In this document: positions 15,935-63,101 of the stretch, in pieces
Numbering within the stretch: position 1 is the first letter of the stretch
How the letters are laid out: each line of letters opens with the position of its first letter
DNA from: a virus
Virus record (IMG/VR): IMGVR_UViG_3300042691_044383
Location: 52,633-116,632 of that record
Length of the DNA: 64,000 bases
Direction: 5' to 3' (one strand)
Program-made: the position numbers and the translations under genes
The notes under the pieces: model-generated
Database searches by the model: none
What the model was told of the DNA's origin: nothing
The model's input: only the letters and a program-made list of their open reading frames with translations

Positions 15935-16447
15935 TTACCTTTCGACATATTGAAAAGTCGGGACTAAATCCGATTCATCGAAGTGATGAACGACAACCAT
16001 GCGGTGCTGTTCCTTCGGAAGTGAAACCTTCAGCGAAAGACCGGCTTGAATTTTCCTTTTTGGCGTTTCATTCACGATTTCTTGTTTCAACTTGAAGGAC
16101 TGCTGGCAGAATACTAAGTACTCTTCCAAACTTGGTAGCAATCCTCCGTACTTTGCTGTGAGCGATTTTCGATTACCGGCGACCCTTTGCACCGTTAGGT
16201 GCGTCCAGTCGTCGGGTGGAAGCTCGTCCACAAAGATCACAAACCCGTGCGGTTTAGCCGCCCGGTTCCACACCGTAGGCTCGAAAAGCCAGGATCCGTA
16301 GAACAGCAAACGGGCGGTAAAATTACCTTTGTCGGTTTGCGTGAACGGGACGTTAGCCAATTTAACTTCGTGGTTCTTGTTGACGGAAAAATCCCGCCAA
16401 AGGCACGTGCCAGGCTTCAACCCGGCCATCAAATCTTCCGTTCTCAC
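15935..16447 (-). CDS. Unknown protein
   Basis: 170 residues from GTG 16447, inside a GTGA overlap with the stop of the pentapeptide gene upstream. It has a beta-rich look (GNFTARLLFYGSWLF, HGFVIFVDELPPDDW) and ends FDESDLVPTFQYVER. Function not recognised; no membrane segment or metal motif is seen. Coupling to the two pentapeptide genes suggests a shared process. Confidence 0.65.
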   Translation of the reverse strand: MRTEDLMAGLKPGTCLWRDFSVNKNHEVKLANVPFTQTDKGNFTARLLFYGSWLFEPTVWNRAAKPHGFVIFVDELPPDDWTHLTVQRVAGNRKSLTAKYGGLLPSLEEYLVFCQQSFKLKQEIVNETPKRKIQAGLSLKVSLPKEQHRMVVVHHFDESDLVPTFQYVER

Positions 16448-17103
16448 GTGTCACCGCCTTTCGCTTTTGCCATCACACCCCGTATCACGCCTTTAATCAT
16501 TTCGCCGTGCGACTTCCACCAAGCAGACGCATCTTCGTGCATCTGCTTGATCTCTTCGCTTTCAGGCGTCCACGCTAACCAGTCCTCGTTAATGCGCTGC
16601 TGGCAGCCGATAGCTGTTCGGTCCGCGTAAACGCAGACCGACCAACCTCCAAAATCCATCCTACAAATTGCGGCGTTGATGCAAGCGCCGATCACGACGG
16701 TGCGGCTCAGGTTTGCACCTTTCAGGTTTGCACGGTACAGATTGGCGCCTTCCAGGTTTGCACGGTACAGATTGGCGCCTTCCAGGTTGGCATGCCGCAG
16801 GTCGGCACCTCGAAGGTTGGCCTCGCTTAGGTTGGCATGCCGCAAGTCGGCACCTTCCAGGTTAGCCTCGAACAGTTTAGCGTCTAACAGGTTGGCACCT
16901 CGCAGGTTGGCCTCGCCAAGGTTGGCATAGACCAGGTTGGCCCGTACAAGCTCAGCCAGGCGAAAGTCGCAATGTCGCATATAAACACCGCAAAGGTTGG
17001 CACTAACCAGGTTGGCACTGTAAAAGTTGGCTTTCTTTCCGCCCTCGCCACGCAACCACTTCGCGTGCTCAGTTAAAATCGTTGCTAGTTCTTCAGGTTT
17101 CAT
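16444..17103 (-). CDS. Pentapeptide-repeat protein A
   Basis: 219 residues. N-terminal MKPEELATILTEHAKWLRGEGG is followed by about 23 pentapeptide repeats of the A(N/D)LxX type (residues 24-140), which form a right-handed quadrilateral beta-helix that can mimic DNA. A conserved C-terminal domain (about 145-219) has WSVCVYADRTAIGC, LAWTPESEEIKQMH and a Trp-rich end. Pentapeptide proteins such as Qnr and MfpA inhibit DNA gyrase; that role is possible but not shown. It is a paralogue of the upstream gene with the same N- and C-terminal domains. The start lies in an ATGA overlap. Confidence 0.85.
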   Translation of the reverse strand: MKPEELATILTEHAKWLRGEGGKKANFYSANLVSANLCGVYMRHCDFRLAELVRANLVYANLGEANLRGANLLDAKLFEANLEGADLRHANLSEANLRGADLRHANLEGANLYRANLEGANLYRANLKGANLSRTVVIGACINAAICRMDFGGWSVCVYADRTAIGCQQRINEDWLAWTPESEEIKQMHEDASAWWKSHGEMIKGVIRGVMAKAKGGDT

Positions 17104-17894
17104 GTGTTATTGCCTTTCGAATTTTTTATCACGTGGCGGATTGCTGCTTTGATAAACTCGCCGTGCGTTGCCCACCAAGAAGCCGCATCGGAGTGCATCT
17201 TCTTGATCTCTTCGCTTTCCGATGTCCAAGCCAACCAGTTTTCATTAGGTTGTGTTTTGCAACCGATGGATGTTCGGTCCGCGTAAACGCAGATCGACCA
17301 ACGATCGATATCCATGCGACAAACCAGGGTGTCGATTCTTGCCCCAGTAAGATTAGCATCGTCAAGGTCAGCGCCGTTAAGGTTGGCCCCGCGAAGGTCG
17401 GCCCCTTCAAGATTGGCCCGGCGAAGGTTGGCCCCGCGAAGGTTGACCCCGCGAAGGTCGGCCCCGTCAAGGTTGGCTCCGATAAGGTTGGCCTTGTAAA
17501 GGTTGGCCCCGCGAAGGTTGGCCCCGGCAAGGTTGGCTCCGATAAGGTTGGCCTTGTAAAGGTTGGCCCCTTCCAGGTCGGCCCCGATAAGGCTGGCTCC
17601 TAAAAGGAAGGCCCTGCGAAGGTTGGCCCCGCGAAGGTTGGCCCCGGCAAGGTTGGCATCGCGAAGGTCGGCCCCGGCAAGTTTGACCATGGCAAGTTCG
17701 GCCCCACCAAGGTTGGCCCCGCGAAGGTTGGCATCGCGAAGGTCGGCCCCGGCAAGTTTGACCATGGCAAGTTCGGCCCCACCAAGGTTGGCCCCGCGAA
17801 GTTCGGCCCTGTGCAGGTTGGCCCTTTTGCCACCTTCATCCTTTAACCACTTCGCGTGCTCAGTTAAAATCGTTGCTAGTTCTTCAGGTTTCAT
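17100..17894 (-). CDS. Pentapeptide-repeat protein B
   Basis: 264 residues with nearly the same N-terminal 22 residues and C-terminal domain (ADRTSIGCKTQPNENWLAWT) as protein A, and about 32 pentapeptides between. Residues encoded by 17651-17800 contain a 25-residue unit duplicated in tandem. The helix is therefore longer than in A by about nine repeats. Like A it may be a DNA-mimic inhibitor or a host-interaction protein; this is inference. The 3' end overlaps the start of A by 4 nt. Confidence 0.85.
   Translation of the reverse strand: MKPEELATILTEHAKWLKDEGGKRANLHRAELRGANLGGAELAMVKLAGADLRDANLRGANLGGAELAMVKLAGADLRDANLAGANLRGANLRRAFLLGASLIGADLEGANLYKANLIGANLAGANLRGANLYKANLIGANLDGADLRGVNLRGANLRRANLEGADLRGANLNGADLDDANLTGARIDTLVCRMDIDRWSICVYADRTSIGCKTQPNENWLAWTSESEEIKKMHSDAASWWATHGEFIKAAIRHVIKNSKGNNT
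17651..17800. repeat. 75-bp tandem duplication in pentapeptide gene B
   Basis: Two identical or nearly identical 75-bp units (17651-17725 and 17726-17800), each five pentapeptides. Their near identity suggests a recent duplication of the helix length. Confidence 0.8.
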
Positions 17895-23609: not shown

Positions 23610-24029
23610 TTAAGCTGTCACTTGGATAGTGAAAGTGTCGATAAGCGTGTTGTCTGCATTGTTTCGGACTTCGATGGTTTGCGGTGCCACTGTTGCGAGA
23701 GAATCGCTGTAACAAGTGAAGCTGACCCACTGCCCTGCCGAAACGGAGAAAGTGCTTCCGGGGCTGGCCGCAACTGGATCCCACGGGGGAGAGAACGGTA
23801 AACCGAACTGACTGCCGGTGACTTCGGTCGCGGAGATGCTGTAGAAAAGTTGGATGGCCGACGGGTTCGTCAGATTGACAACCTTAAGCGTGATCGCCGA
23901 AGCCAGCTGCCGACTGGTTATGTTGCTGCTAGCTGTTCCGTAGCTGTAGGTCAAATTGGCCCAGTCCGTGCCCGTAGGCCCCGTAGTCGCCGGTGGATGC
24001 GAGTTAAAGAAACCAGAAAAGGGAATCAT
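23610..24029 (-). CDS. Putative fibre-associated virion protein
   Basis: 139 residues, Ser/Thr/Pro-rich with beta-strand pattern (SRQLASAITLKVVNLTNPSA, IEVRNNADNTLIDTFTIQV). It begins with [20 protein letters not shown]. It follows the collagen-like fibre with a TAATG overlap and is likely a fibre tip or chaperone. No motif identifies it. Confidence 0.55.
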   Translation of the reverse strand: MIPFSGFFNSHPPATTGPTGTDWANLTYSYGTASSNITSRQLASAITLKVVNLTNPSAIQLFYSISATEVTGSQFGLPFSPPWDPVAASPGSTFSVSAGQWVSFTCYSDSLATVAPQTIEVRNNADNTLIDTFTIQVTA

Positions 24030-26806
24030 TATGCGGCAGTGTCCCCAGCCAAAATGAAGTTGTTAGTACTACGTTGAATCAGCGATACCACGGCCCATCG
24101 CCCGGCGGTCTTGGTGTGGCTTTGACGGTTGTTTATCGTGGTCCCAGACGCGCTAAACGATATTTGACCTGTTCCAGTTTGAATTATTGTAAGTGTGAAA
24201 CCCACTGGAAGCCCGGTGGGAACCGTGACTGTCACTGCCGAACTGCTGCTGCACTCTAAGACAATACCGTTGTCCGCACTGCTCAGCGATCGAGTTGTAC
24301 CCGTTACCACCGAAACTATGCCGGTACCTGTTGCGTACTTGTTCGCGGTCAAACCGCCAACGTTGAGCAAATCGGTGCTCGGGTTGTAGCTCAGCGACGG
24401 TGCCGTTGTGTCGACACTCGGTGTCTGGTTACTCCCAGCGGCTGCGACGAACACGGGATAGAACGTGGCGTCGGTGTTTGTCGCAGTCGCATTTACTGTT
24501 GTGCCTGGGCCCGTGGCCCCTGTAGCGCCCTGTGTTCCGGTTGCCCCCGTGGGACTGGTTGCATCGTTCTTCCAAGCCGAAAGCGTGCTATCGTAGCGAA
24601 GGTAATTACCGTTTTGCAGGCTGCTGAACTTAACGTCAAAAAGCTCATGCAAAGCCGTCTGCTGCAAATACATGCGGACATAAATTCGACCACTCTCGAC
24701 ATGCTGCCGCGTAACGATGGCCACCGGCATGCGTATAGTGCTCGCCGCCGGTTCTGTCGCCGTTAACCCGCCAGGCGTGCTCGGATTCAACCACAGCACC
24801 GTACCCACAGTGTAGCTGAGGGTATTCAGGTGTTGCATGTCGCCAATCAGGGTAACGTAACCCGAGGCTTCACTGGCTATGTTTTCAGATGCTATGCCGA
24901 GCATGTAACGTGGAAGAACAGTACCGTCCGCGTTTGCCAGAGTAACTTCGATCGTATCCCCTGTCGCCCCGGTGGCCATAACGGCTTGGCCTTTGTTGAT
25001 GACACCGCCGGACATGTTCTTGACGGTGACGCGTAGTTCCTTGGCGTAGTTGTCTATCCAAACCGTGTCGTAATTTGTGTCAGTGTTTTTCGCCAGCACC
25101 TGCCCGGTCAATCCGCCCGCCGGCACACCGCTACCCGTTGGGCCGGTCGCACCCGTTGCACCCTGGGCACCTGTGGGTTGAATTTCGAGAACGACCTGAT
25201 CCAGCAACGTGTAAGCGCCGTTAGTTGTTATCGCTTCAACTGTGTAGTCGAAAAGCGTTGTTTCTTCCGTGACGGCCAAGACTCGATAAATGCCGAACTT
25301 GTTGACGTCGGACATCACGCGAGTTTTTAACGTGTCGGTGGGTTTAGCTGTGGCGAGCAACGCGGATATGTCTACGCTGTTGTAGTTTGATTTCTCGACA
25401 TAGATGTGCGTGACCGCAGCCAGCGAAGCGTTGTTGAAGTAAATCTGACCGTGCAACGAGAAAGCTTGTTGCCTTGCCGATTCCGCGTCGGGGTCCGCGT
25501 AGAAAAGTTCGCTGTCTCCGGCGTACTTTAACGGGGCTGGCGGGTCAACCTCGGGCGTCAGTTGATCGTTGAATTCCCAACTGATGAGTAACTCGTAAGT
25601 AGGCGTGGTCGGCCCGGTTGGACCCGTAGGCCCGGTTGGACCTGTAGGACCGGTTGGACCAGTTGGCCCAGTGGTACCTGTCGATCCCTCGCAACAAGGG
25701 CCTTGCGGGCCTTCCGCACCACGGTAACCCTGTGGCCCACGGTGGCCCTGTGGTCCGCGATAGCCTTGTGGGCCGCGTTTTCCTTGGGGACCCTGTGGCC
25801 CTTGCGGACCCTCGTAACCTTGCGGACCTCTGTAGCCTTGCGGACCTCTGTAGCCTTGCGCTCCGCGATATCCTTGAGGGCCGCGATAACCTTGCGGACC
25901 TCGATACCCTTGTGGTCCACGATAGCCGGTGGCCCCCGTGTAGCCAGGGTAACCTTGCGGGCCACGGTGACCTTGGGGTCCGCGGTCGCCTTGGGGTCCT
26001 TGGTCTCCGGGATTGCCGTCAGGACCGGGGTTGCCGTCCGGTCCAGGGTTACCGTCAGGCCCAGGATTGCCGTCGGGCCCGGGATTACCGTCAGGGCCTA
26101 TTGGGCCTTGAGGGCCGGGTGTACCTTGCGGGCCTGCCGTACCTTGAGGTCCCTCCGCTCCTTGCGGTCCGATTAAACCTTGTGGTCCGATTAAACCTTG
26201 TGGTCCGATTAAACCTTGCGGGCCTTGTGGGCCCTGTGGGCCAGCCGGCCCCTGCGGTCCTTGTGGGCCTTCTGCACCCTGCGGCCCTTCTGCACCTTGT
26301 GGGCCTTCTGCACCCTGTGGGCCTTGCGGTCCTTGCGGTCCTTGCGGTCCAAGCTGCGGGCTGGGCAAGCCGATGTTCAGCTGAATGTCAAAGGAGCAAT
26401 CGCCAGACTTGTTGACGTTTAAATTGGCAAAGGGTGCTCCGCCAGGTCCTACGGTAGTGACGTTCGCCTCTCCCGTTATTTCCGGACAGGGAAAGTCTAC
26501 CTGCAAGTTCAACACGTAATCGCAGCATTGACCCTTTGTCACTGTAAAAATAACTCTTTCGCTTCCGATCGGTACCACGTTGGTGGTGATGTCGTCTTGG
26601 GCGGAAAGAATTGGGCAAATTGGATCCGGGTCGAGCAACGGAACAGGCAGCGACGGACAATCAAAGATATCCGCTGGGGCTTGCGGAACCTGTGGGTTTA
26701 TCAGCCAGTTTCCACCTGGAATAGGGAAAATGCAAGGCACGTCGCATTTGACGATGTCAAACACGGGTGACTGCGGTCCCTGTGGGCACTGCGTCGTAGG
26801 CGCCAT
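24029..26806 (-). CDS. Collagen-like tail fibre protein
   Basis: 925 residues. An N-terminal head (1-150) with several Cys ([22 protein letters not shown]) probably attaches to the baseplate or fibre base. Residues about 153-405 are uninterrupted Gly-X-Y repeats (GPQGPQ, GNPGPD, GYRGPQ blocks) that would form a collagen triple helix. A globular part follows, then short [10 protein letters not shown] stretches, then a C-terminal beta-structured tip ([13 protein letters not shown]... [20 protein letters not shown]). Collagen-like repeats occur in phage tail fibres. The gene fits a receptor-binding fibre. Its upstream neighbours are related fibre/adaptor proteins. Confidence 0.85.
25590..26350. 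repeat. Collagen-coding low-complexity DNA
   Basis: Degenerate repeats of GGNCCN type coding Gly-Pro-Gln, Gly-Pro-Asp and Gly-Tyr-Arg triplets. Blocks such as four GNPGPD units and five GYRG units are nearly identical at DNA level. Confidence 0.85.
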
Positions 26807-34788: not shown

Positions 34789-35382
34789 CTAGCTCAAAGT
34801 GGTTTGCCATTCAATTCCGATCTGGCTGGAAGGCAATTTTTGTTGCTGATCCGCCGTGGTGTAATACCAGCTGCTATAAAGCAAGTCTTGCGTAAAATCC
34901 GTGGCGTCAACAAGTGCCACAAGGCTACCACCGAACACGACCGAGTTCGCTGCGGCAGAAAAAGGTTTCCCGTGCACGCCGACCGAGCCGCTGCTTCTTG
35001 CGAAATAGGACATCCGGTTATCCGTAAGACCTTCGCCGTCCGAGCTGAGCTCCGCCGAGATGACCGGAATACGCAGATAGTCGCGGTTCGAGCTAAGCGA
35101 GAGACCGTTGTAGTAGCTGACATCTCGCGTGCGATCGAAGGTAGGCGGACTTACCGGGTCGCCAGGATTGTCCGTGTTTTCAAACTCCAAGTACATGCCG
35201 CTAATCCGGTACCGGCTATCTCCGCTCGTCAACAGCTTTGCTGCGATAGTTGCCCACTGGTAAAGAATCAAGTTAGGCTTAAAGTCCGTTGTCGGAGCCC
35301 ACTTAAACGGAGGCAGCGTTAAATCTTCAACCTTGTAAGCTCGAACTCGTCCAGCCACGCCCGTACAAAACTTGGCAGTCAT
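34789..35382 (-). CDS. Putative baseplate protein
   Basis: 197 residues from ATG 35382 (TAATG overlap). It starts MTAKFCTGVAGRVRAYKVED and has a beta-rich C-terminus (DATDFTQDLLYSSWYY). A central part has SRYRISGMYLEFENTDNPGD. It is coupled to the 35382-36941 gene and is likely part of the same baseplate substructure. Not otherwise recognised. Confidence 0.55.
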   Translation of the reverse strand: MTAKFCTGVAGRVRAYKVEDLTLPPFKWAPTTDFKPNLILYQWATIAAKLLTSGDSRYRISGMYLEFENTDNPGDPVSPPTFDRTRDVSYYNGLSLSSNRDYLRIPVISAELSSDGEGLTDNRMSYFARSSGSVGVHGKPFSAAANSVVFGGSLVALVDATDFTQDLLYSSWYYTTADQQQKLPSSQIGIEWQTTLS

Positions 35383-36941
35383 TAAACGCACCTTCCACTG
35401 ATTGATTTTATTTTTGACTCTTCAGTTACGTATGCTTCGTATCCAAGCGACTCGGAAACGGTTAAACACTGGAAGTTTTCAAAGCTTTCAGTGTACCCTG
35501 GCGACTCCGGCGTACCGTAACCTTCCATGATGATAGGGTTGTCGGCATACGCTAAGTCCACCAGCAAGATCATCAACGTGTGCGGTGGCATCACCTTTCG
35601 AAGCTGCGACACAGGCACAAATTCTAGCCTATTCTGCAGTTTGCTTCCAGGTTTAACTTTCACGATGAAAACGTTGAACCGGAGCAGGTTGTCTACCAGA
35701 AACTTCAACGGGTTGATCTCCGCAGGCAAAGAGTCAGCCGTCGGCTGGCCGACAGGGTTCTCCCGCACGTCTAGCAGCATCGCTAATGTTTCGTTCTTAG
35801 CTATGCCGTTTGCGTGGACATCCTCCCAAAACTTCGAAACGTCTCGCGGAAAGCCGCCCAAATCCCAGGTGACCTTGGTATAGCCGTCGACATCAAGTTC
35901 TGTTTGTACCGGGACGTTTGCGTTCGAAAAAACGAGGCCGTCGTGATACCCCTTCGTCAGCATACCGGTGTCCATCGTTAAACTGTCGACGCCGCAATTA
36001 ACGTCGAATCCCCGGTTAAGCTCAATGATTTCGAACGTGTCAGTGAGCGACTGGCCTGCGTAAACCGTCTGCCCGACGGAAACGACAGGCGTTGCCGTGG
36101 AAGGATATGCATACACGTTTGAGTTCGTTATCACTTTCAAACCTGTTGCGTCGGTGGCAATGGCTTCGACAACTTCCGTTGCATCGATCACTAGAGGTAT
36201 GCCAAAGACAGCGGCCAAAGCTTGTTGCTGCGAACGAGCGCTGGTCCCCTCGTTAAAGCTTTCGAGTACAGCGTTCACCAGCGTCTTGTAGCCTGCGCTG
36301 GATCGCATAGGCAAATTCAGAGCGTAACCGAACTGGTCGTAAATGTAATTCCAGTCCCACTTAGATCGATAAAACCACAAGGTAATTTCAGTGTCAACGA
36401 TCTCCCCAACCGCGTTCAATATTTCCTTCTTCGGAATGTCCGGGTTGTCGAACGGGTTAGCGACAAAAACAACTGTGTTTTCTTCCAGCCAGAAGTCGAT
36501 GCCGTTAAGCATCTGCACCGTAGGCTGCGTGACCTGTTCAAATACGACGGAGCACTCTACAAGCTCGCGAGGCTTACTGATCGCGTAATAACGAGAAGTC
36601 GGTATTTGTCCGTAGAAAAGTTCAGCTTGGCTTTTGTACTTGTAGGCTGTTCCCGTGAGATAACGCGCAAGCAAACTTATGTCGGTGTTAAGAGCTGAAC
36701 GTCTTACCTGCACTGCGTACCAGTCGTCTTGATGATAGACAGGCACGTTTTTTCGTGAAACGCTGTTTACTAGCTCAAGGAACTGCGTGTTGACTTGCTG
36801 GTATAGCTGCCCGACAACGTTACTGATATCCGAAACCAGGCCGTTACCCTGGTAAAGCGAAGCCCAAAAGCTACCCAGTACGCTCAGCAGCGAGTCAGGT
36901 CTATCGAAGTCATTCTGAGGATACTTGTAAAGTTGCGGCAT
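35382..36941 (-). CDS. Putative baseplate/tail protein (position of P2 gpI)
   Basis: 519 residues. N-terminal helices (SVLGSFWASLYQ, DISNVVGQLYQQVNTQFLELV), then a folded middle and a C-terminus with LTVSESLGYEAYVTEESK. It follows, after the protease block, the baseplate J-like gene, the place of the gpI-type tail protein in many myophages; that assignment rests on gene order only. The last bases overlap the next gene's ATG. Confidence 0.5.
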   Translation of the reverse strand: MPQLYKYPQNDFDRPDSLLSVLGSFWASLYQGNGLVSDISNVVGQLYQQVNTQFLELVNSVSRKNVPVYHQDDWYAVQVRRSALNTDISLLARYLTGTAYKYKSQAELFYGQIPTSRYYAISKPRELVECSVVFEQVTQPTVQMLNGIDFWLEENTVVFVANPFDNPDIPKKEILNAVGEIVDTEITLWFYRSKWDWNYIYDQFGYALNLPMRSSAGYKTLVNAVLESFNEGTSARSQQQALAAVFGIPLVIDATEVVEAIATDATGLKVITNSNVYAYPSTATPVVSVGQTVYAGQSLTDTFEIIELNRGFDVNCGVDSLTMDTGMLTKGYHDGLVFSNANVPVQTELDVDGYTKVTWDLGGFPRDVSKFWEDVHANGIAKNETLAMLLDVRENPVGQPTADSLPAEINPLKFLVDNLLRFNVFIVKVKPGSKLQNRLEFVPVSQLRKVMPPHTLMILLVDLAYADNPIIMEGYGTPESPGYTESFENFQCLTVSESLGYEAYVTEESKIKSISGRCV

Positions 36942-37263
36942 CGGCTTTTTCTTGGAATAGCTTGTCTAGAAAGTAATCGATAGCAAGCTTCATTGTAGCC
37001 GACAGCAGAACTTGCAGTAATAGCGTTAGAATGACGCCGCCCGTGATGAACTTGTAGGCCTTCTTTTCAAGTTGAGCGCGATTAGCGTTTGGGTTTTCCT
37101 CCCAAGCTTGTTTGACCGCGTCCATTGCCCTGCGAACGTCTGCCCGCTCCTTTTCAATGCGAAATATTTCCCGGCTACGATTTTTGCCTACGGCTTGCAT
37201 GTAGGTTAAATCGTCCAGGTTGCGCGAAGCGCAGAATGCCGTCGCCGTCTTTTCCCAATCCAT
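36910..37263 (-). CDS. Small transmembrane protein
   Basis: 117 residues. A charged helical N-terminal half (KERADVRRAMDAVKQAWEEN) is followed by one hydrophobic segment (GGVILTLLLQVLLSATMKLAI) and a short charged tail. GAGG precedes the ATG. This architecture, a cytosolic coiled part with one membrane span, could be a holin-like or anchor protein. It stands at the end of the envelope block that includes two proteases. Confidence 0.6.
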   Translation of the reverse strand: MDWEKTATAFCASRNLDDLTYMQAVGKNRSREIFRIEKERADVRRAMDAVKQAWEENPNANRAQLEKKAYKFITGGVILTLLLQVLLSATMKLAIDYFLDKLFQEKADAATLQVSSE

Positions 37264-37264
37264 A

Positions 37265-37552
37265 CTAATCCTCTGCTTTCAAAAGCACGTCGATGGGCGA
37301 GTTATCGATTTCGACCTTAAGGCCGCCGCCGACGTTTTTTACACCAGATATCGTCGTCTTTACCATTATCGGGCCGACTTTCACTCGCACCTTCACGGGA
37401 GGATTGAAGCGAAGGACACCTGCCTGCAAAGTTACTTCCTGCAAGTTGGAAAAGTCCGCCGTACCGCCGTTGAAATCTACGCACCCTGTTTGCAACAATT
37501 GCGACAGGGTGGAATGCAACTTCTCGGGTATGCCGACCGGGTAGTTTAACAT
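37265..37552 (-). CDS. Unknown small beta-rich protein
   Basis: 95 residues from ATG 37552 (TAATG overlap with the lipoprotein gene). It begins MLNYPVGIPEKLHSTLSQLL and then has alternating strands (FNPPVKVRVKVGPIMVKTTI). The function is unknown. A C-terminal EIDNSPIDVLLKAED follows. Its coupling to the lipoprotein points to a shared envelope role. Confidence 0.6.
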   Translation of the reverse strand: MLNYPVGIPEKLHSTLSQLLQTGCVDFNGGTADFSNLQEVTLQAGVLRFNPPVKVRVKVGPIMVKTTISGVKNVGGGLKVEIDNSPIDVLLKAED

Positions 37553-38157
37553 TATTGGGGACACGGTTGCCCTTGCGGGCATGTGCTGTAGGTACGATTT
37601 CTGCGAAAAACTGTCGGGGCTCGGTTTGTTGCGTAGTATTGAGTCACAGGGGCAGCGTTCACGGATCGAATCTGCGAGCCATAAGCCGAGTAGCCGTTAT
37701 GCAAATTATCGTGCATGGCTTGCAGTTCGGTCATGGTTTTTCCGTCTACGTTCAAACCGTGAACTTGCCGAAGGTGATCCGCAAGCTCAACGAGTGTGTA
37801 GTTCCAGTCACCTTCTACGTTCCAGTTTGAGCCCGGCATGCGTGTTACGCTCCCGTTTGAAAATGTCGGAGCGTCAACGCGTACGTTAGCCGCTTGCACA
37901 GGCTTTGCAAGCACTGTATTCGCTTGCGGCTCTTTCGCCTTCGCTTGAAGATCGTTGACGGCTTGTTCGATACGTTCCAGTGTCGAACGGTAACTTTGCA
38001 ACTCCGACATTGTCTCGCTGTGGGACTGTTGGATGGATTCCGTGACCGCAGCGTTGAAGCGTTCAACGAGATCGTCTTTCAACGGTTGCGGTGAAGGTGA
38101 GCACCCTAGCAAGAACAGTAAAGCGGCGGTAAAAAAACTAGCTACCAATTTCTTCAT
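37552..38157 (-). CDS. Lipoprotein with a planctomycete-style domain
   Basis: 201 residues from ATG 38157 (GAGGAG 7 nt upstream). The signal MKKLVASFFTAALLFLLGC has lipobox LLGC. The mature part has a coiled helix with IQQSHSETMSELQSYRSTLE, then WNYTLVELADHLRQVHGLNV and TELQAMHDNLHNG, and a C-terminal TCPQGQPCPQ. The HLRxxHG...LHDNLHN module and the CPxGxxCP tail are, as I recall, typical of planctomycete proteins, which supports that host. It is likely an outer-membrane lipoprotein made during infection. It overlaps the peptidase gene by 20 nt. Confidence 0.75.
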   Translation of the reverse strand: MKKLVASFFTAALLFLLGCSPSPQPLKDDLVERFNAAVTESIQQSHSETMSELQSYRSTLERIEQAVNDLQAKAKEPQANTVLAKPVQAANVRVDAPTFSNGSVTRMPGSNWNVEGDWNYTLVELADHLRQVHGLNVDGKTMTELQAMHDNLHNGYSAYGSQIRSVNAAPVTQYYATNRAPTVFRRNRTYSTCPQGQPCPQ

Positions 38158-39094
38158 CGTCAAACTCCTCGTAGTCATCTGCCTCATTCGTCGGTTCTTC
38201 GTGACTGTCCGCCTCATGCATGTGGAGTAACTCGAGCAGATGCTCTCGCTCTTCTTCCGCCAGATGCTCTCGCTCTTCTTCCGCTTCGACTTCGGCGGAC
38301 TTTTCCGTTATCTTGAAGTATGGCGAATTACTGTACCAATCTACAGGCACAGGCTCTTTGGATCCCATAAGGCCGATCGCAGTAGTCCAACTGTCAGCAA
38401 GCATGGCCTTCCAAGCGCTCGGCGTGATCAAGTACTGCCCATCCCCGTGCGAATTCATTGCACGAAGGTCGCCGTCACGGGTGTAGCCTAGGATGCACAT
38501 GGCGTGACCGCCGCGACCTGGAACGAAACGACGGATCACTCGGTCGGAGGGTATTGTCGAACCCCCGTAACGAATACCGAAGTTGATGGCACCCCCGCCA
38601 CCAATGAAGTCAAGTAATTCGTCGTGATCGGGAGAAACCTGCCACGCAGATTTTGCCTTGTACTCAGCACCCGCCTTGTAATTAGCTTCACTCAAAATCT
38701 CGTTGCGTTCGGCTCGGCCAGGGTATGCCCGAGGGTACCCTGTCAACTTCTCCAGCGGACACCCGGTCTCTATCGCCAGCTTCGCGCCGCCGGAAACCGT
38801 TGACCCGTTGTCAGACCCGAGAAGCCCGTCGATCTTCTGTGTTGCCAGGTACGCAAAGATTCTGGAGAGCTGCACCTTCTTGCCGGCCACGAAAGCGCAG
38901 CGTTCTAGTACCGAGGAAAGCGAGTTGCCTTGGCAACTTCCGATCTGAAACTGATTTTCCTCGCGGTGCCAGTCGATAGCCACTTCGGAGGGCCGCCGGA
39001 AAGACCGCCACACACTACTTTGCATCGGTAAAACAGGCAGCGACTTCAAGTACTTGCGATCTTCTCGCTCGAAATTGTAACTCGTAAAAATCAT
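38138..39094 (-). CDS. Papain-like cysteine peptidase
   Basis: 318 residues. Catalytic motifs: FQIGSCQGNSLS with Gln50 (oxyanion hole) and Cys54, GRGGHAMCILGYT with His197, and AMNSHGDGQYL with Asn214, in the order and spacing of C1-type peptidases. The C-terminus is a charged tail with a duplicated EEEREHLA/EEEREHLL unit and acidic end (EADDYEEFDDEE). There is no obvious prodomain or signal peptide. Possible roles are prohead maturation or cleavage of a host envelope protein; the neighbours are all membrane proteins or proteases, which favours the latter. Confidence 0.8.
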   Translation of the reverse strand: MIFTSYNFEREDRKYLKSLPVLPMQSSVWRSFRRPSEVAIDWHREENQFQIGSCQGNSLSSVLERCAFVAGKKVQLSRIFAYLATQKIDGLLGSDNGSTVSGGAKLAIETGCPLEKLTGYPRAYPGRAERNEILSEANYKAGAEYKAKSAWQVSPDHDELLDFIGGGGAINFGIRYGGSTIPSDRVIRRFVPGRGGHAMCILGYTRDGDLRAMNSHGDGQYLITPSAWKAMLADSWTTAIGLMGSKEPVPVDWYSNSPYFKITEKSAEVEAEEEREHLAEEEREHLLELLHMHEADSHEEPTNEADDYEEFDDEEIGS

Positions 39095-39480
39095 TATTTT
39101 GCATAGCTCCGTAACAGGGACTCGTGCGACTCTTTGGACCAGCCGCCTTTGTTTTTGAAGTAGTCGGCCTCGGCTCGGGCCAGTTTTTCGAAAGCAAGCT
39201 TGCGAGCAGGTTCTTGCCCGGCGGCTTGAAACTCCCAGACTTCTTGTTCAGTTTGCAGTTCGCCTGTGCTTAACCTGTCGGCAGCTTTTCCTTGGTGGAT
39301 TCGCCAAAGACTTTCGTAGGTTTCAAAAGCTTCATTCGCTAAATCCGCATTTAGCGTTTTTCGGTTTGGCGAAAACCAGCTGGTCGGAACCAATAACAAA
39401 ACACCCAGCAAACCGCAAACCAAAATGGCCCACGGGAAGCTGGGTGTATTTTCTTCGCCTGCGATCCGTGCAGTATTCAT
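39094..39480 (-). CDS. Small transmembrane protein
   Basis: 128 residues from ATG 39480 (AAGGG upstream). One membrane segment (FPWAILVCGLLGVLLLVPTSWF) stands near the N-terminus, then a long helical part with two Leu/Glu-rich stretches. A possible inner-membrane partner of the small membrane protein at 39492. Function unknown. Confidence 0.6.
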   Translation of the reverse strand: MNTARIAGEENTPSFPWAILVCGLLGVLLLVPTSWFSPNRKTLNADLANEAFETYESLWRIHQGKAADRLSTGELQTEQEVWEFQAAGQEPARKLAFEKLARAEADYFKNKGGWSKESHESLLRSYAK

Positions 39481-39491
39481 CAAGATTGCCC

Positions 39492-39833
39492 TTATTGTTT
39501 GTTGTGCGTGGCCAGCTTGGCCTCGGCTATCGCGACTTCTGCCTCGGTGAGCTCGCCCTTTGCGTAGCTCCACCAAACTTCCGGTCCCGCGTTTGGAGCC
39601 GTGTTTTCTATGATCTGCAAGTGTTCCGCAAAACCTACCGGAGGCGGCGCATCGCTGCTGCGACCGGAGTCCTTTCGTTTGTATTCTTCACGGAACGCGT
39701 TCGCATTCACTTTGCGTCTCGGGGCGAAATGCCGGTAACTGAAAAAAGCTGCGGCACCCAAAAGACCGACAGCTGCGGCAGCCTTTACAGCGTTGACCAG
39801 CGTCTCTAAATCCAGCGTAAGTTCAGCAAGCAT
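39492..39833 (-). CDS. Small transmembrane protein
   Basis: 113 residues. N-terminal membrane segment (AVKAAAAVGLLGAAAFFSY) followed by basic and Pro-containing sequence (PPPVGFAEH) and a helical end with GELTEAEVAIAEAKL. A Shine-Dalgarno (AAGGAAG) precedes the ATG. The two adjacent single-span proteins resemble holin/anti-holin or spanin pairs in layout only. Confidence 0.6.
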   Translation of the reverse strand: MLAELTLDLETLVNAVKAAAAVGLLGAAAFFSYRHFAPRRKVNANAFREEYKRKDSGRSSDAPPPVGFAEHLQIIENTAPNAGPEVWWSYAKGELTEAEVAIAEAKLATHNKQ

Positions 39834-39843
39834 AAACTTCCTT

Positions 39844-40767
39844 TCAATTGGTAACGATTAACTTCTGACCCGGTTGTAACTTTACCTCGATGGTATTTTT
39901 GGTTTGAACAATGTTCGACTTGAGCTTCTCTGGGTTTTGGTTGGGCCCGTAAAGCTTCTGTATTCGAGAGATGTCATCGACCGATTGTGGTGTTCCGACG
40001 AACGGGTTGTAGTACGGTGCCATCAAGGCCTGGTTCCTATCCGAATGGAGTAGCCCAAGCAGATGGCCGAACTCGTGGCATGCAACGTTAGATAACAGTA
40101 TACCCCGCTCGCCTTTGTTTGCCACCCAGGTTTCTTCCAAGTCGAAACGCATCAGTAGCTTTTCGTTGTCGCCTCTTGGCATGTAAGCCCAAGCGAGCGT
40201 CCCACCTTTTCCATCAAACTGATGTTGAAGGCCTTTCCCTGTGGTGATGACGATGTCCGTGGTTTCGACGTCCTTACTTTCGGAAATGTCCAAACCGCAC
40301 ACGTCGTCCCAAGCCTTGAAGGCTTCCTGGAAAATGCGGCGTTGCTCGGATTTAGGTATTTTGCCTCCGACGTAGTCTGCAACAAAGTAAGTCAAACCTG
40401 TTTTGTTCCATCGATCACGTCTTTCAGCTGCAACTTCGGCAGCACGCAAGAATTCTACGTGCTTTCCGTTGGATTTGTCCAACTTGTCCGGGCAACCGCA
40501 GCGAGGAACCTGCATGGCGCGAAGTGTCTCCTCGGTGAGCATTCCGTCTGCTTTTATGCCAAAATATCGTTGAAAAACCTTAATTCCAGCGTGAATATCG
40601 TCCATACTCACGCTTTTCAGCAGTTCGACGGTCAAATAGCCGAAAAAAACCAAGTAATCGGTGGCAAACGTGATAGCTTGCTTGTTTTGGCGCGTTTTTG
40701 ACGTCGCCATGTCGGATTTCGTTAAAATTCTGACGACTTCCGACTTACCACTGACTTTCTTTGGCAT
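39844..40767 (-). CDS. Matrixin-type metalloprotease with cysteine switch
   Basis: 307 residues. The N-terminal region with FQRYFGIKADGMLTEETLRAM resembles a peptidoglycan-binding-type prodomain. PRCGCPD (residues 88-94) is a cysteine-switch motif like that of vertebrate MMP proenzymes. The catalytic domain has FDGKGGTLAWAYMP and HEFGHLLGLLH (231-241), the three-His zinc site, with Met-turn ALM (247-249). The C-terminus (from residue 280) is a short beta-like extension. A latent zymogen that is activated by removing the prodomain is implied. No signal peptide is seen. Bacterial matrixins are known; a phage-coded one with a switch is unusual. It follows the baseplate J gene by one base. Confidence 0.9.
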   Translation of the reverse strand: MPKKVSGKSEVVRILTKSDMATSKTRQNKQAITFATDYLVFFGYLTVELLKSVSMDDIHAGIKVFQRYFGIKADGMLTEETLRAMQVPRCGCPDKLDKSNGKHVEFLRAAEVAAERRDRWNKTGLTYFVADYVGGKIPKSEQRRIFQEAFKAWDDVCGLDISESKDVETTDIVITTGKGLQHQFDGKGGTLAWAYMPRGDNEKLLMRFDLEETWVANKGERGILLSNVACHEFGHLLGLLHSDRNQALMAPYYNPFVGTPQSVDDISRIQKLYGPNQNPEKLKSNIVQTKNTIEVKLQPGQKLIVTN

Positions 40768-40768
40768 T

Positions 40769-42436
40769 TTAGGTTGCAACCGGTATTGAGGAGATTACGT
40801 TCAAGTTTACGTCTATCGCTTCGGCAAAAAACTGAACTGTCTTGGAGGTTACCATTTTTCCAGGAAGTTCTGGTATTATCAAGGCGTCATCGCTGCGTAA
40901 ATACTTGATGGTGCCGTCCGGCATGCGAATCCGACCCAAAAGATCCAGTTCCGTGACGTTCAATCGACCTTGCAGGTAGTTGTGCACGGTATCCACGATC
41001 AAAGAACCAGGTAACACGCCTTGGAAGTCGACGGAGTTAATCGCCGTCACAATGGCGGACCGAATAGGCTCTAGCGACGGAGAAACATCGTCAGCAGCCT
41101 TGTTTATCGTAAGAGTCACGCTGACAAAGCACGGGACAGGGGCTTTGATCAAGGCATCGGCGCCGTAGTGCCGGATATCTCGGCTGGAAACAAGATCCTG
41201 CAGTTCACGGACATGTGGCGTGCCCGTTATCTCGTAAACATACTCTGCGGTCTGACCGACGGCTAAATCTGCAACCGATGTGACCGTATCTGTGAAAAGG
41301 ATAATTGCGGACTGGAAAGCGGAATATGCGCTCTCCTCTGCTGTTGCAATGTCCGGGGAGAAACCGCTTGCAGGTAACGCGGTGTAACGCGTGTCCGATA
41401 CGATACCGAAGCCTGACACGACAGCAGAGTCGGTTGCCTTGCGTATCTTGTCCACCTCGTAAAACCCGGGAAGAGTTGTCGCCGGAACAGCAAACTGCCA
41501 CTCACTTGTTCCTGTAAGCGTTGATACCGACATGCAGGTGGCCACGACTGCAACCGTTTTTCGTTGCAACGCAGATTGCCCGCGTATGTACCAGTCTACC
41601 CTACCGCCGGTAAGCGTCGGGAAGATGGTGTGTTTGTCCCGCAGCATTTCGGGATCGCCACAACCGACGATGGATTGATTTGTGACCGACTCGAACTGCG
41701 GCAGACTTCGCAAGTAGGCGCGCATGTTCGTGCGGTTCGAGAGCGTTTTTGCCGCGACACCCAGCTGCAACTCGTTAATAAGCTCTTCGTTTGTCTCGGT
41801 GTTGGTTCCGTCCTCGAAAGAAGACGTGGCATAGCTTGTGACGTAGTTAACGACCGCGCGGTTGGGGACTATTAGGTCGCCTGCATTCAGCTTCCTGTCG
41901 GCACCGATATCCACGGCTTCTACCTCGATCGTGAAAGCGTAGTTGCCGTTGCTAAGTGGAACCAGCAGCCGGTCGTTGCTCCCCAGTATTTGGGCAGCCG
42001 ATATTCTTCCGATAAAAGTCGCCGTGGCCAAGTATTGGAAGCCGTTAGCTTCAAACACGCTGTTTTGCGGTATCGTTAACGGTCGAAGTGCTGAAAGTTC
42101 GATCGTGACCGGCCCGCTTGCCTTGGTGCCGGTCTTTCGCACAATACCCCAGTTGGAAAGCACTTCGCTGACCACAGTTTCGTCAGCGAGCGTCGGATCC
42201 TCTTGAATGCGTTGTAGACTTCTTGCAGACTGGTACCGCTCCAAGTTTACGCGAGCGGCAGTACCCAAAACTGACTGCAAGTAAGCAATGGTGTCGCGGA
42301 AAGCTCCTCGGCGTAAATCCAACGTCGGATTCAACGCTTGCAGCTGCGCAATAGTCCGCAGCAGCGTCTGTTGCACATCGGCTGCATCCAATTGCGAAAG
42401 ATCGGAGATTTCAAAGTCGGAATAGGTTAGAGTCAT
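40769..42436 (-). CDS. Baseplate J-like protein
   Basis: 555 residues: an N-terminal helical domain (TLLRTIAQLQALNPTLDL), a central beta-rich domain with GPVTIELSALRPLTIPQNSV, FEANGFQYLATATF and LNAGDLIVPN, and a C-terminal part with ISSIPVAT. This layout is that of baseplate J-like proteins of contractile-tailed phages, which form the baseplate wedge ring together with a gp25-type protein. It overlaps the gp25-like gene's stop by 4 nt. The length is slightly above the P2 J class but normal for larger myophages. Confidence 0.75.
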   Translation of the reverse strand: MTLTYSDFEISDLSQLDAADVQQTLLRTIAQLQALNPTLDLRRGAFRDTIAYLQSVLGTAARVNLERYQSARSLQRIQEDPTLADETVVSEVLSNWGIVRKTGTKASGPVTIELSALRPLTIPQNSVFEANGFQYLATATFIGRISAAQILGSNDRLLVPLSNGNYAFTIEVEAVDIGADRKLNAGDLIVPNRAVVNYVTSYATSSFEDGTNTETNEELINELQLGVAAKTLSNRTNMRAYLRSLPQFESVTNQSIVGCGDPEMLRDKHTIFPTLTGGRVDWYIRGQSALQRKTVAVVATCMSVSTLTGTSEWQFAVPATTLPGFYEVDKIRKATDSAVVSGFGIVSDTRYTALPASGFSPDIATAEESAYSAFQSAIILFTDTVTSVADLAVGQTAEYVYEITGTPHVRELQDLVSSRDIRHYGADALIKAPVPCFVSVTLTINKAADDVSPSLEPIRSAIVTAINSVDFQGVLPGSLIVDTVHNYLQGRLNVTELDLLGRIRMPDGTIKYLRSDDALIIPELPGKMVTSKTVQFFAEAIDVNLNVISSIPVAT

Positions 42437-43389: not shown

Positions 43390-44124
43390 TTACGAGATAA
43401 AAGGTGAAAGAGCTTGTTCTTGGTCTAAAAGACGTTGGATTTTTTCTTTCCGCTGCGTAATAGCCGCTGGCGTTCGGTTCAGCGCTTTTGCGATCTCTAG
43501 GTTGGAAAACTTACGCCTGTTATTCATACCGAGAGTCATTTCTAAAATTTGCTGGTCAATCGGATCTAAATCTTGATGCACCACCTGTAACCAGAGATCC
43601 GAGGCACCGGTGTCGCCAGGAAGCCTGCTGGCCATGCTTTCAAAATTTGATTCCGGACTTTCGGCTTGACCCGTGCTGAATCCCGGCTGGTACTTCCTTA
43701 TCTTGGCGATACGCGGAATCGAAACCCGCATGAAATCGGAAAGCTCTGCATCCGTTGGTTCTCGCCCCAGCTCATCGGCAAGCTCTTGCGTAGCCGACCG
43801 AAGCTTGTGGTTTTCAAGCACAATACGCTCGGGAGCGTTGACAATCTGGTTTTGTTGACGAGATATCCGCCTGAGTCCCTGCATATTTGTAACAATGTGC
43901 GACCGCAGCCTAGACCTTTTAGGATCGTACTTGTTCGCAGCGTCTAAGGCCAATAACCTTGCGCGGCTTCGCAGCAAAGGGCTGTCGTCACCGTAAGCTT
44001 GAAGGCCCTGGTTAATGACAGGGTCGATCGCTTTCAAAAAGGCGGCATTACCGGTTGGCGTCTTATCGGCCTGCCACGTCTGAAAGGCCGGGCGAAATTC
44101 GTCTTCTAAATAATCGTTCATCAT
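43390..44124 (-). CDS. Sigma-70-like factor (probable late sigma)
   Basis: 244 residues. DAANKYDPKRSRLRSHIVTN resembles sigma region 2, RELADELGREPTDAELSDFM-like sequence (here ATQELADELGREPTDAELSD) region 3, and DPIDQQILEMTLGMNNRRKF plus FSNLEIAKALNRTPAAITQR a region 4 helix-turn-helix. It probably directs host RNA polymerase to phage promoters. Its place within the baseplate genes is unusual, since a regulator is expected near early genes. Region 1 is absent. Whether it recognises a -10/-35 pair other than the host one cannot be seen. Confidence 0.8.
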   Translation of the reverse strand: MMNDYLEDEFRPAFQTWQADKTPTGNAAFLKAIDPVINQGLQAYGDDSPLLRSRARLLALDAANKYDPKRSRLRSHIVTNMQGLRRISRQQNQIVNAPERIVLENHKLRSATQELADELGREPTDAELSDFMRVSIPRIAKIRKYQPGFSTGQAESPESNFESMASRLPGDTGASDLWLQVVHQDLDPIDQQILEMTLGMNNRRKFSNLEIAKALNRTPAAITQRKEKIQRLLDQEQALSPFIS

Positions 44125-62012: not shown

Positions 62013-63101
62013 CTACGCGTCGTCGAGCTTGTACCAGCCTTCCTTGCCCGTGTAGACGTTCATCACGTCTTTAAAATACTTGTTGTACCTTGGCGCAATC
62101 TTTTCCAAAGAGAACTGTTCACCGAACTTCCTGCAATTTTCAGGTTTGATCCGATCGATGTTGCGAACAGCGTCGACAAAGTCGGCAAAAGTTCTGCAGC
62201 GATAGCCCGTTACGCCGTGCAGATTGTTCTCCGTAAACGCACCCCAGTCCGTGGTAATCGTAGGAGTACCGGATAGCAAATTTTCGATCTGAACCCCGCC
62301 AAAGGGCTCGATGTACTGACTTGCCACAAAGCTGGCTTTCGCGTCTCGCATTAGCTTTTTGCGGGTCTCGGAATCAGCGTATCCAACGTATTCGACCGAA
62401 GCTGGAAGCTCGAAAGACGGATCCTTTTGCCCTGCAATCACAAGTTTAATGCCGAGCTTCTGGGCAACTTGAATTGCAATGTGTACGCCTTTGCCCTCGT
62501 AAACGCGACCGAGGTACAAAAAGTAATCCTGCTTTTTGTCGCTGTATTCGAAATCATTTAAGTCGAAATAGTTCGGGATCACTACCTCGTACCAATCTTG
62601 CTTGCAATTGCGAACGCCCGCCATGCCGCAGTAAGCATGGTAAATGGCATAAGACTCGAAAATTTTCCAACGCGCCCAGTGTCCATCCGCGTAACCTATA
62701 CCAGGTTCCACGCAGATAAGGTCGGAGTGTGCGTCGCAGACCGGGCGTACGCCAGCTCCCCAGAACGGCAGGATGAAGTCCAGCGGCTTTTTACGTTTAG
62801 CTATTTCTGTGATCGCGTTGCGATAGAACGTTTGGTAAGCGTGATCTTCCGTGTTGAACTTGAAAAAGTTTTTACGCCAATCGTAGCTTCCGTACGCAAT
62901 TTCCAGGTCTTCGTTTGTCGTAACCGTTACATGCTCGTCGCACGCAAGATTAGAATCCGCGTGGCCGTAATGAATAATGTGGTGCCCGTGCGGTCGCATC
63001 ATTTCAGCGAACTTTACAACTTTTTGCGTGTATGCGCAAGCAACGTAATCGCGGTTAGAAACGGTATGCGGCAATCCTAGAACGTGAAATCTGAACGGCA
63101 T
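62013..63101 (-). CDS. Glycosyltransferase family 4-like protein
   Basis: 362 residues. The C-terminal GT-B half has [21 protein letters not shown] and [21 protein letters not shown], the latter the EPFGxxxxE motif of GT4 enzymes. The N-terminal half is the acceptor side. It could modify phage proteins or host surface sugars with the glycosyltransferases at 20.6-23.2 kb. AAGGAAAAAC precedes ATG 63101. Confidence 0.8.

Follow-up and report, generated by a model that had tools for sequence, protein, structure and literature searches.

Most known proenzymes of the matrix metalloproteases (pro-MMPs) that carry a cysteine switch come from animals and plants. In animal MMPs, histidines of the S-loop bind a structural zinc; to our knowledge, this site is not counted as a requirement for the wider M10 family. 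Karilysin, a matrixin of Tannerella forsythia, has a short propeptide without a cysteine switch. For phages, the Mtz-Tim pair of Listeria serves as a functional precedent for a metzincin and a lipoprotein that aid lysis: this pair is of phage origin and promotes phage lysis (PMC8235301). Unlike the protein described here, Mtz bears a Sec signal peptide and cuts its own partner lipoprotein, and the accessible text of that paper does not contain the term 'cysteine switch' (PMC8235301). In the accessible text of a study on MMP gene transfer (PMC12587646), the words 'phage' and 'virus' occur 0 times and 'viral' occurs in a reference only. Among the papers listed, and judged by title, PMC8235301 is the one that bears on matrixins and phages; we found no report of a phage-encoded MMP there, and no literature match for 'Peptidase M10' together with 'phage genome'; subscription journals are mostly outside the coverage of these searches, and absence from print is thus unproven.

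Here we describe a matrixin gene in a stretch of 64 kb (the window) from a virus record of 116,632 bases. The virus record itself, and the genes for baseplate J, tail sheath and tail fibre in the neighbourhood of the matrixin, support the phage origin given in a preliminary description of this DNA. The protein is encoded at the coordinates reported there, with the specification that the coding strand is the minus strand, complement(39844..40767); the plus strand contains stops in that frame. The ATG begins 1 base past the stop codon of Baseplate_J (Table 1), and an in-frame TTG upstream would add 4 extra residues. The comparison with a 98%-identical homologue (L008) indicates purifying selection on the matrixin (dN/dS 0.031), whereas synonymous changes are saturated in the comparison with L009.

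Domain architecture and predicted fold

We observed matches to both Peptidase_M10 and a peptidoglycan-binding domain (PGBD), the two profiles proposed as a check of the preliminary description. Peptidase_M10 (PF00413) is matched over the full profile with E 1.2e-33 and 116.7 bits (curated Pfam cut-off 24), and PG_binding_1 with E 1.2e-6 and 29 bits (curated Pfam cut-off 23), the latter being a profile match from which binding is only predicted. The heptapeptide PRCGCPD lies between these two domains and thus ahead of the catalytic domain, as had been described, and the zinc-binding motif HEFGHLLGLLH and the ALM Met-turn (residues 247-249) are likewise present. By alignment to the PRCGVPD of MMPs, Cys90 is the switch cysteine and Cys92 is additional. 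On its own, the RCGxPD motif is weak evidence, because the corresponding DNA pattern, which occurs once in the window, was also found once in 7 of 100 shuffles (mean 0.07); the weight of the switch motif, as judged from the predicted domains, comes from its location between the PGBD and the M10 domain. The linker that follows the switch is longer than in the aligned MMPs, and its basic residues could be an activation site.

Table 1. Features of the matrixin, its cassette and related genes (window coordinates; residues refer to the matrixin)
Feature	Coordinates	Strand	Basis or remark
Matrixin (MMP-like) proenzyme, 307 aa, ATG start	39844..40767	-	Pfam, PDB sequence search, dN/dS 0.031
PG_binding_1-type prodomain, residues 34-85	40513..40668	-	Pfam E 1.2e-6; PF01471 matched by 16/17 members of the family alignment
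Cysteine-switch heptapeptide PRCGCPD, residues 88-94	40486..40506	-	Alignment to MMP PRCGVPD
Linker, residues 95-118, ending in basic AAERRDRW	40414..40485	-	Alignment, family alignment, model
Peptidase_M10 catalytic domain, residues 119-274	39946..40413	-	Pfam, profile 1-159 of 159
FDGKGGTLAW loop, residues 184-193; Trp in place of structural-zinc His	40189..40218	-	Sequence motif
Zinc-binding HEFGHLLGLLH, residues 231-241; Cys230 directly before	40045..40077	-	Sequence motif
Baseplate wedge / Baseplate_J protein, 555 aa, upstream flank	40769..42436	-	phrog_6 E 3.1e-14, PF04865 E 1.8e-9
Accessory cassette between baseplate J gene and f2	36942..40768	-	3.8 kb; gap closed in five related records
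Family f10, 113 aa, one predicted N-terminal membrane helix	39492..39833	-	Hydropathy only
Family f14, one predicted membrane helix	39094..39576	-	Hydropathy only; real start probably downstream of TTG
Family f11, papain-like cysteine protease	38138..39094	-	Family profile vs PDB 3ois, E 6.5e-17
Family f12, lipoprotein-like (LLGC), C-terminal CPQGQPCPQ	37552..38217	-	Hydropathy and motifs; start probably internal
105-aa ORF, at the place of family f15 in relatives	37265..37582	-	Profile scans without match
Family f8, 117 aa, one predicted membrane helix	36910..37263	-	Hydropathy; profile scans without match of note
Family f2, 519 aa, downstream flank, conserved beside baseplate J	35382..36941	-	Gene neighbourhood
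Collagen-like tail fibre, 925 aa, three tandem PQGLIG repeats	24029..26806	-	Sequence; also in closest relatives G001, G002

Two further claims of the preliminary description stand in part. The FDGKGGTLAW loop resembles that of MMPs, but the MMP histidines for the structural zinc are absent (LAH is replaced by LAW and HFD by RFD), and by sequence the S-loop would have no structural zinc site. Similarly, the PGBD-type prodomain is matched by its profile, but a PGBD by itself does not show that the protein targets peptidoglycan, because the same stretch overlays the prodomains of MMPs. In a phmmer search, the top PDB matches were pro-MMP-10, pro-MMP-1 and pro-MMP-9 (human), with alignments that run through the switch and as far as the catalytic domain extends; the alignment to pro-MMP-9 begins at residue 33 of the phage protein.

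A structure model was built from a family alignment of 17 rows (pLDDT 77.3; confidence below 50 at residues 1-4, 180-190 and 213-221), and its first 21 Foldseek matches are pro-MMPs. With VIA-align, human pro-MMP-9 superposes on model residues 30-273, a range that includes the switch segment, with Z 21.3 over 221 residues at 3.1 A. Catalytic-domain structures score Z 16-17.4 over about 150-165 residues, and the NMR structure of pro-MMP-7 (2mze) is also lower, with Z 16.9 over 233 residues. Since pro-MMP-9 scores higher than the catalytic domains, the predicted prodomain rests on the catalytic domain much as in pro-MMPs. The zymogen-like fold that had been suggested is thus reproduced in the predicted structure, where prodomain and catalytic domain together superpose on pro-MMP-9. 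Cys90 would keep the enzyme latent by binding the zinc, and removal of the prodomain would activate it. Karilysin has a similar catalytic fold (Z 17.7 to the model); its solved structure with propeptide aligns only from model residue 87.

In summary, the phage protein shares with the vertebrate M10 enzymes pro-MMP-1, -9 and -10 the prodomain fold, PRCGxPD, HExxHxxGxxH and the Met-turn, together with the superposition on pro-MMP-9. It differs from vertebrate MMPs in that it is phage-encoded, has no signal peptide and no hemopexin domain detected with Pfam, has lost the structural-zinc histidines and has gained two cysteines, in CGC and at Cys230.

The phage clade and its prokaryotic relatives

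A scan of IMG/VR resulted in 20 loci (L007-L026), of which 17 (L007-L023, in records G001-G017 with contigs of 45-408 kb) carry the clade of the phage matrixin; L007 is identical to the window and L023 is a near copy of L017. Four further records with a matrixin (G416-G419) were found via the neighbouring gene f2 and then by profile. We compared 18 distinct sequences (the window, L008-L022, L200 and L201), leaving out copies and near copies (L007, L023, L202, L203) and sequences that are outside the clade or switchless (L024, L025, L026). Both RC[GA]xx[DE] and HExGHxxGxxH occur in 18/18 sequences, a constancy that is partly built in, because most sequences were retrieved with DNA patterns containing these motifs. 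L200 and L201, which belong to the G416-G419 set and were retrieved by profile only, also have both motifs. In the clade alignment, Arg89 and Cys90 are invariant at a mean column identity of 38%, and the N-termini of the 16 clade sequences L007-L022 showed no hydrophobic stretch. Among the 50,697 records of INPHARED, there was no relative of the matrixin at E 1e-3 and none of the L018 protein at E 0.01; 12 plasmid records contain matrixins, with an identity of at most 35.4%. Baseplate_J, the one structural gene that we searched in INPHARED, had a best match of only 24% (phage G).

Matrixins with a switch are also present in bacteria and archaea. We scanned GTDB with patterns that allowed W or H, and C or I, at the scored places and kept the best 80 of at least 586 stretches. 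RC[GA]xx[DE] precedes the catalytic domain in 31 of these best 80 loci, which include Cyanobacteriota, Chloroflexota, Actinomycetota, Myxococcota, Bacteroidota, Bacillota, Pseudomonadota and one Bathyarchaeon; 29 of the 31 also have no N-terminal hydrophobic stretch, with start codons assigned mechanically. We thus conclude that the architecture is not specific to vertebrates, and the special likeness to vertebrate enzymes emphasised in the preliminary description is not supported in that form: besides these loci, the clade itself sits with planctomycete sequences in a tree of phage and prokaryotic matrixins.

To describe what marks the phage clade, we used a comparison set of 34 prokaryotic-type switch proteins: the 31 GTDB loci (from the best 80 of at least 586), two Paenibacillus plasmid proteins and L024. 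The two Paenibacillus proteins have long C-terminal repeats. L024 is a contig of 7.7 kb with a viral label; its matrixin clusters with those of actinobacteria and has retained the structural-zinc histidines, and the contig is probably bacterial DNA. Bacterial PGBD-matrixins, such as Paenibacillus sonchi WP_202677761.1, resemble the phage protein in having the switch before the matrixin domain and mostly no leader, and in many of them the match extends through the prodomain. They differ in metal and cysteine layout. The structural-zinc histidines are kept in 30/30 and 33/33 scorable proteins of the 34 (GTDB part: best 80 of at least 586), whereas the phage clade has LAW (16/17) or LAY (1/17) at the LAH position among the scored sequences, with LAWS by eye in the 18th (L201), and His before [FY]D in 0/18. 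Conversely, the second switch cysteine (CGC) occurs in 15/18 phage sequences and a Cys just before HExxH in 17/18, each compared to 0/34 in the prokaryotic-type set with the same GTDB part. A disulphide between Cys92 and Cys230 was considered as the reason for the extra cysteines and rejected: both are present in 14/18 without strict co-occurrence, as L200 has CGC without Cys230, and L017, L022 and L201 have Cys230 without CGC. Judged from their sequences, the phage matrixins are a genuine, conserved branch of the prokaryotic cysteine-switch matrixins.

We inferred a tree of 62 rows with midpoint root, leaving out L200-L203 and animal sequences; 12 rows have no switch, of which 10 are selected bacterial loci. 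The 16 phage sequences form one group (support 96/90). A branch with support 100/100 unites them with L062, L083 (Limnoglobus roseus), L114 (Zavarzinella formosa) and the phages L025 and L026, and 33 bacterial switch matrixins and L024 stand apart from it. With the phage group beside planctomycete sequences and apart from the 33 bacterial switch matrixins, we rejected a capture from a non-planctomycete bacterium. The L062 matrixin has a terminase gene at a distance of about 4.5 kb, and the L083 matrixin a tape-measure gene at about 3.3 kb; these two loci are thus probably prophages. The one ORF beside L114 that was searched had no match. As the nearest cellular relatives are planctomycete, and two of them lie beside phage genes, the tree suggests planctomycete hosts for the phage clade, with less certainty for the subclade of the window.

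Some further observations concern the host. A Cys before HExxH is found in 6/16 planctomycete and 0/63 other scorable loci of the best 80 of at least 586 in GTDB (p 3e-5, without correction for phylogeny); among these six loci, L115 sits across the tree on a long branch, and the tree does not include L131 and L132. A family of secreted-looking proteins with one invariant CxxCH of the c-haem type (fam13, e.g. L015:6915-8681) lies beside the matrixin in L015, L017/L023, L020, L022, L025 and L026, and in the planctomycete loci L062 and L083. The family, for which neither a Pfam match of note nor any PDB match was obtained, was matched in 10/20 phage records searched and in 9/294 planctomycete genomes, with no match in G000-G008 (the subclade of the window) nor in G018. 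When 20 of the window's 64 kb were compared at the DNA level to 392 planctomycete genomes, 38 had matches, of which the strongest were to fibre repeats and the rest were short. In a lake enrichment, planctomycete phages and jumbo phages were both reported, although the source, as far as accessible, does not present them as the same phages (PMC9040852).

The accessory cassette beside the baseplate genes

In the window, the cassette has the order matrixin, f10, f14, f11, f12, 105-aa ORF and f8. In f11, Q50, C54, H197 and N214 are invariant in 7/7 sequences, and the Cys, His and Asn align with those of the papain-like protease 3ois. In contrast to the latter, f11 has no Pfam or NCBIfam match and no hydrophobic leader; its predicted structure has a pLDDT of 39, and the papain-like assignment rests on the profile.

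A matrixin-bearing insert between Baseplate_J and f2 is present in the window and 12 records (L007-L015, L017, L023 and L183), and the matrixin adjoins Baseplate_J in 13/16 lineage records with a matrixin (counting L007, which equals the window, and L023, which is close to L017). Baseplate_J and f2 are adjacent, with less than 40 bases between the aligned ends, in L175, L180, L181, L182 and L187, of which L180-L182 are mutually close; other genes occupy the gap in L184 and L186. An M10 match was absent from G415, G420, G422 and G423. In G416-G418 (L180-L182), the matrixin is far from Baseplate_J and f2. All genes of the G416 stretch were read, and after the matrixin come two proteins that have a hydrophobic stretch at the N-terminus, and in addition a putative papain-like protease and a Cys-tailed protein; in G418, the two genes read are the matrixin and a protease. 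By gene content, a cassette of the same kind thus recurs away from the baseplate genes in G416, where the membrane proteins are similar in kind to f10 and f14, homology not being implied.

The place of f11 is taken in L010 by a different protein, which is homologous to the protease of G416 (40% identity) and contains QGRGDC...HA...NSW. It has no detectable similarity to f11 (hhalign probability 0.1) and no PDB match; by motif, proteins of the L010/L213 type are putatively papain-like. The slot for a cysteine protease is thus filled by either f11 or the L010/L213 type. No cassette protein of the window, and none of the several homologues searched, gave a significant PHROGs or Pfam match to holin, endolysin or spanin; the sole lysis label was i-spanin for one protein of G416, with E 0.024, which is chance level.

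Other genes in these regions may be mentioned here. The gap genes of L186:5797-7995 and L184:6449-7998 have a common N-terminal tag (MNAKAYLIKQA, MDAKAYLIKQA, MNPRAYLLKRA, MDCHLFLIKEA), possibly a common sorting or packaging signal; two of these genes contain a LAHELGHA motif, and both records are without an M10 match. A Sigma-70 region 3 protein (family f4) is encoded inside the tail module of the window at 43390-44124 (minus strand) and is found in 11/21 sources compared, the window included. The glycosyltransferase at 62013-63101 (minus strand) is 73.5% identical to that of cyanophage S-CAM7, as against the 24% of Baseplate_J, and looks like a horizontally moved gene. Two neighbouring pentapeptide-repeat proteins are encoded at 16444-17894 (minus strand).

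Possible functions of the matrixin

Starting from the domain architecture, the conserved motifs, the clade and the cassette, which are established at the sequence level, we infer latency, activation, timing, target and host as follows. Our leading reading, held tentatively, is that, when infection ends, a latent matrixin proenzyme and its cassette partners open the envelope of the host, a planctomycete. The PGBD-like prodomain would dock over the catalytic cleft and Cys90 of PRCGCPD would block the zinc, so that the infected cell would produce the enzyme in an inactive form and, for want of a signal peptide, retain it. The proenzyme would be made together with the tail genes and would reach the envelope when the inner membrane is breached; the prodomain would then be removed by the matrixin itself or by a partner protease, and the freed matrixin would cut envelope proteins. 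A role in lysis appears more likely than one in entry, because the module can be missing from the gap or sit elsewhere and because the partners look membrane-bound. Against this reading, none of the cassette proteins significantly matched a known lysis family, and the lipoprotein and membrane assignments come from hydropathy and motifs.

Entry is nevertheless a strong rival. The matrixin would then belong to the virion, at the baseplate or tail tip, and be carried latent; it would be unlocked on host contact and cut surface or envelope proteins to give the tail access. The position directly after Baseplate_J and before f2 in the window and the 12 records is what one would expect of such a protein, it would need no signal peptide, and the PGBD-like domain could hold it at the wall; the adjacency in 13/16 lineage records is also in keeping with a virion role. 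However, the five related records in which Baseplate_J and f2 adjoin without an insert argue that the matrixin is not a core baseplate part; furthermore, it is distant from both genes in G416-G418, and its neighbours look membrane-bound rather than structural. We therefore regard the virion role as possible but on balance unlikely. Less probable again is a role as fitness cargo, with the enzyme released to act beyond the infected cell, for example on extracellular matrix, receptors or host defence proteins. Two other phages do have different genes at the site between Baseplate_J and f2, which is what one would expect of a cargo slot, and the bacterial switch matrixins without an N-terminal hydrophobic stretch (29/31, from the best 80 of at least 586) show the same lack of a leader; a free cargo gene would, however, have no need to appear at two locations, each time with partners of the same kinds.

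It is improbable that the propeptide is no working switch, its resemblance being inherited and the enzyme constitutively active or inactive. The neighbouring group is indeed degenerate (RVCGVAD in L062, RFCALPE in L083, YCGRVE in L114, and no cysteine in L025 and L026), and in L025, L026 and L114 a membrane stretch occupies the N-terminus in place of the PGBD and switch of the clade. Within the clade, however, Arg89 and Cys90 do not vary in an otherwise divergent alignment, with the caveat of motif-based retrieval. The lowest probability of all goes to a processing protease for phage proteins, particularly for the collagen-like tail fibre encoded in the same genome (Table 1), whose PQG-LIG resembles the site cut by vertebrate collagenases. 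Collagen repeats are present in 14/21 matrixin-bearing records at E 0.001 (11/21 over the family cut-off). In the f2 lineage, however, they occur in 11/15 records with and 2/4 without a matrixin (p 0.56), a small and non-independent count that leaves out the near copy G017 and G421, which starts inside the gap. Furthermore, P[QLA]G[LI] is absent from 6/11 collagen-bearing matrixin records, as counted in the fetched stretches with some counts from other frames. With repeats not clearly commoner alongside the matrixin, we rejected the collagen fibre as the substrate.

The preferred reading of envelope opening at the end of infection can be extended to a cascade of two proteases in large planctomycete phages, which we offer as a speculation of rather low probability, though above that of the cargo reading. 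The papain-like protease would cut the pro-matrixin in its basic linker and free the switch, and the pair would degrade a protein-rich envelope, in place of, or alongside, a peptidoglycan lysin. The activation pathway from cathepsins to MMPs in animals is a parallel. The cysteines of CGC and before HExxH would make the lock redox-sensitive, either shut in the reducing cytoplasm or opened on exposure.

With purifying selection, recurring partners and an altered layout of metal site and cysteines, the phage clade is a compact natural variant of the cysteine switch. The cassette gives a concrete handle on how tailed phages may deal with the unusual envelope of planctomycetes. Phages in which the gap between Baseplate_J and f2 is empty, filled with the cassette or otherwise filled would allow its role to be compared.
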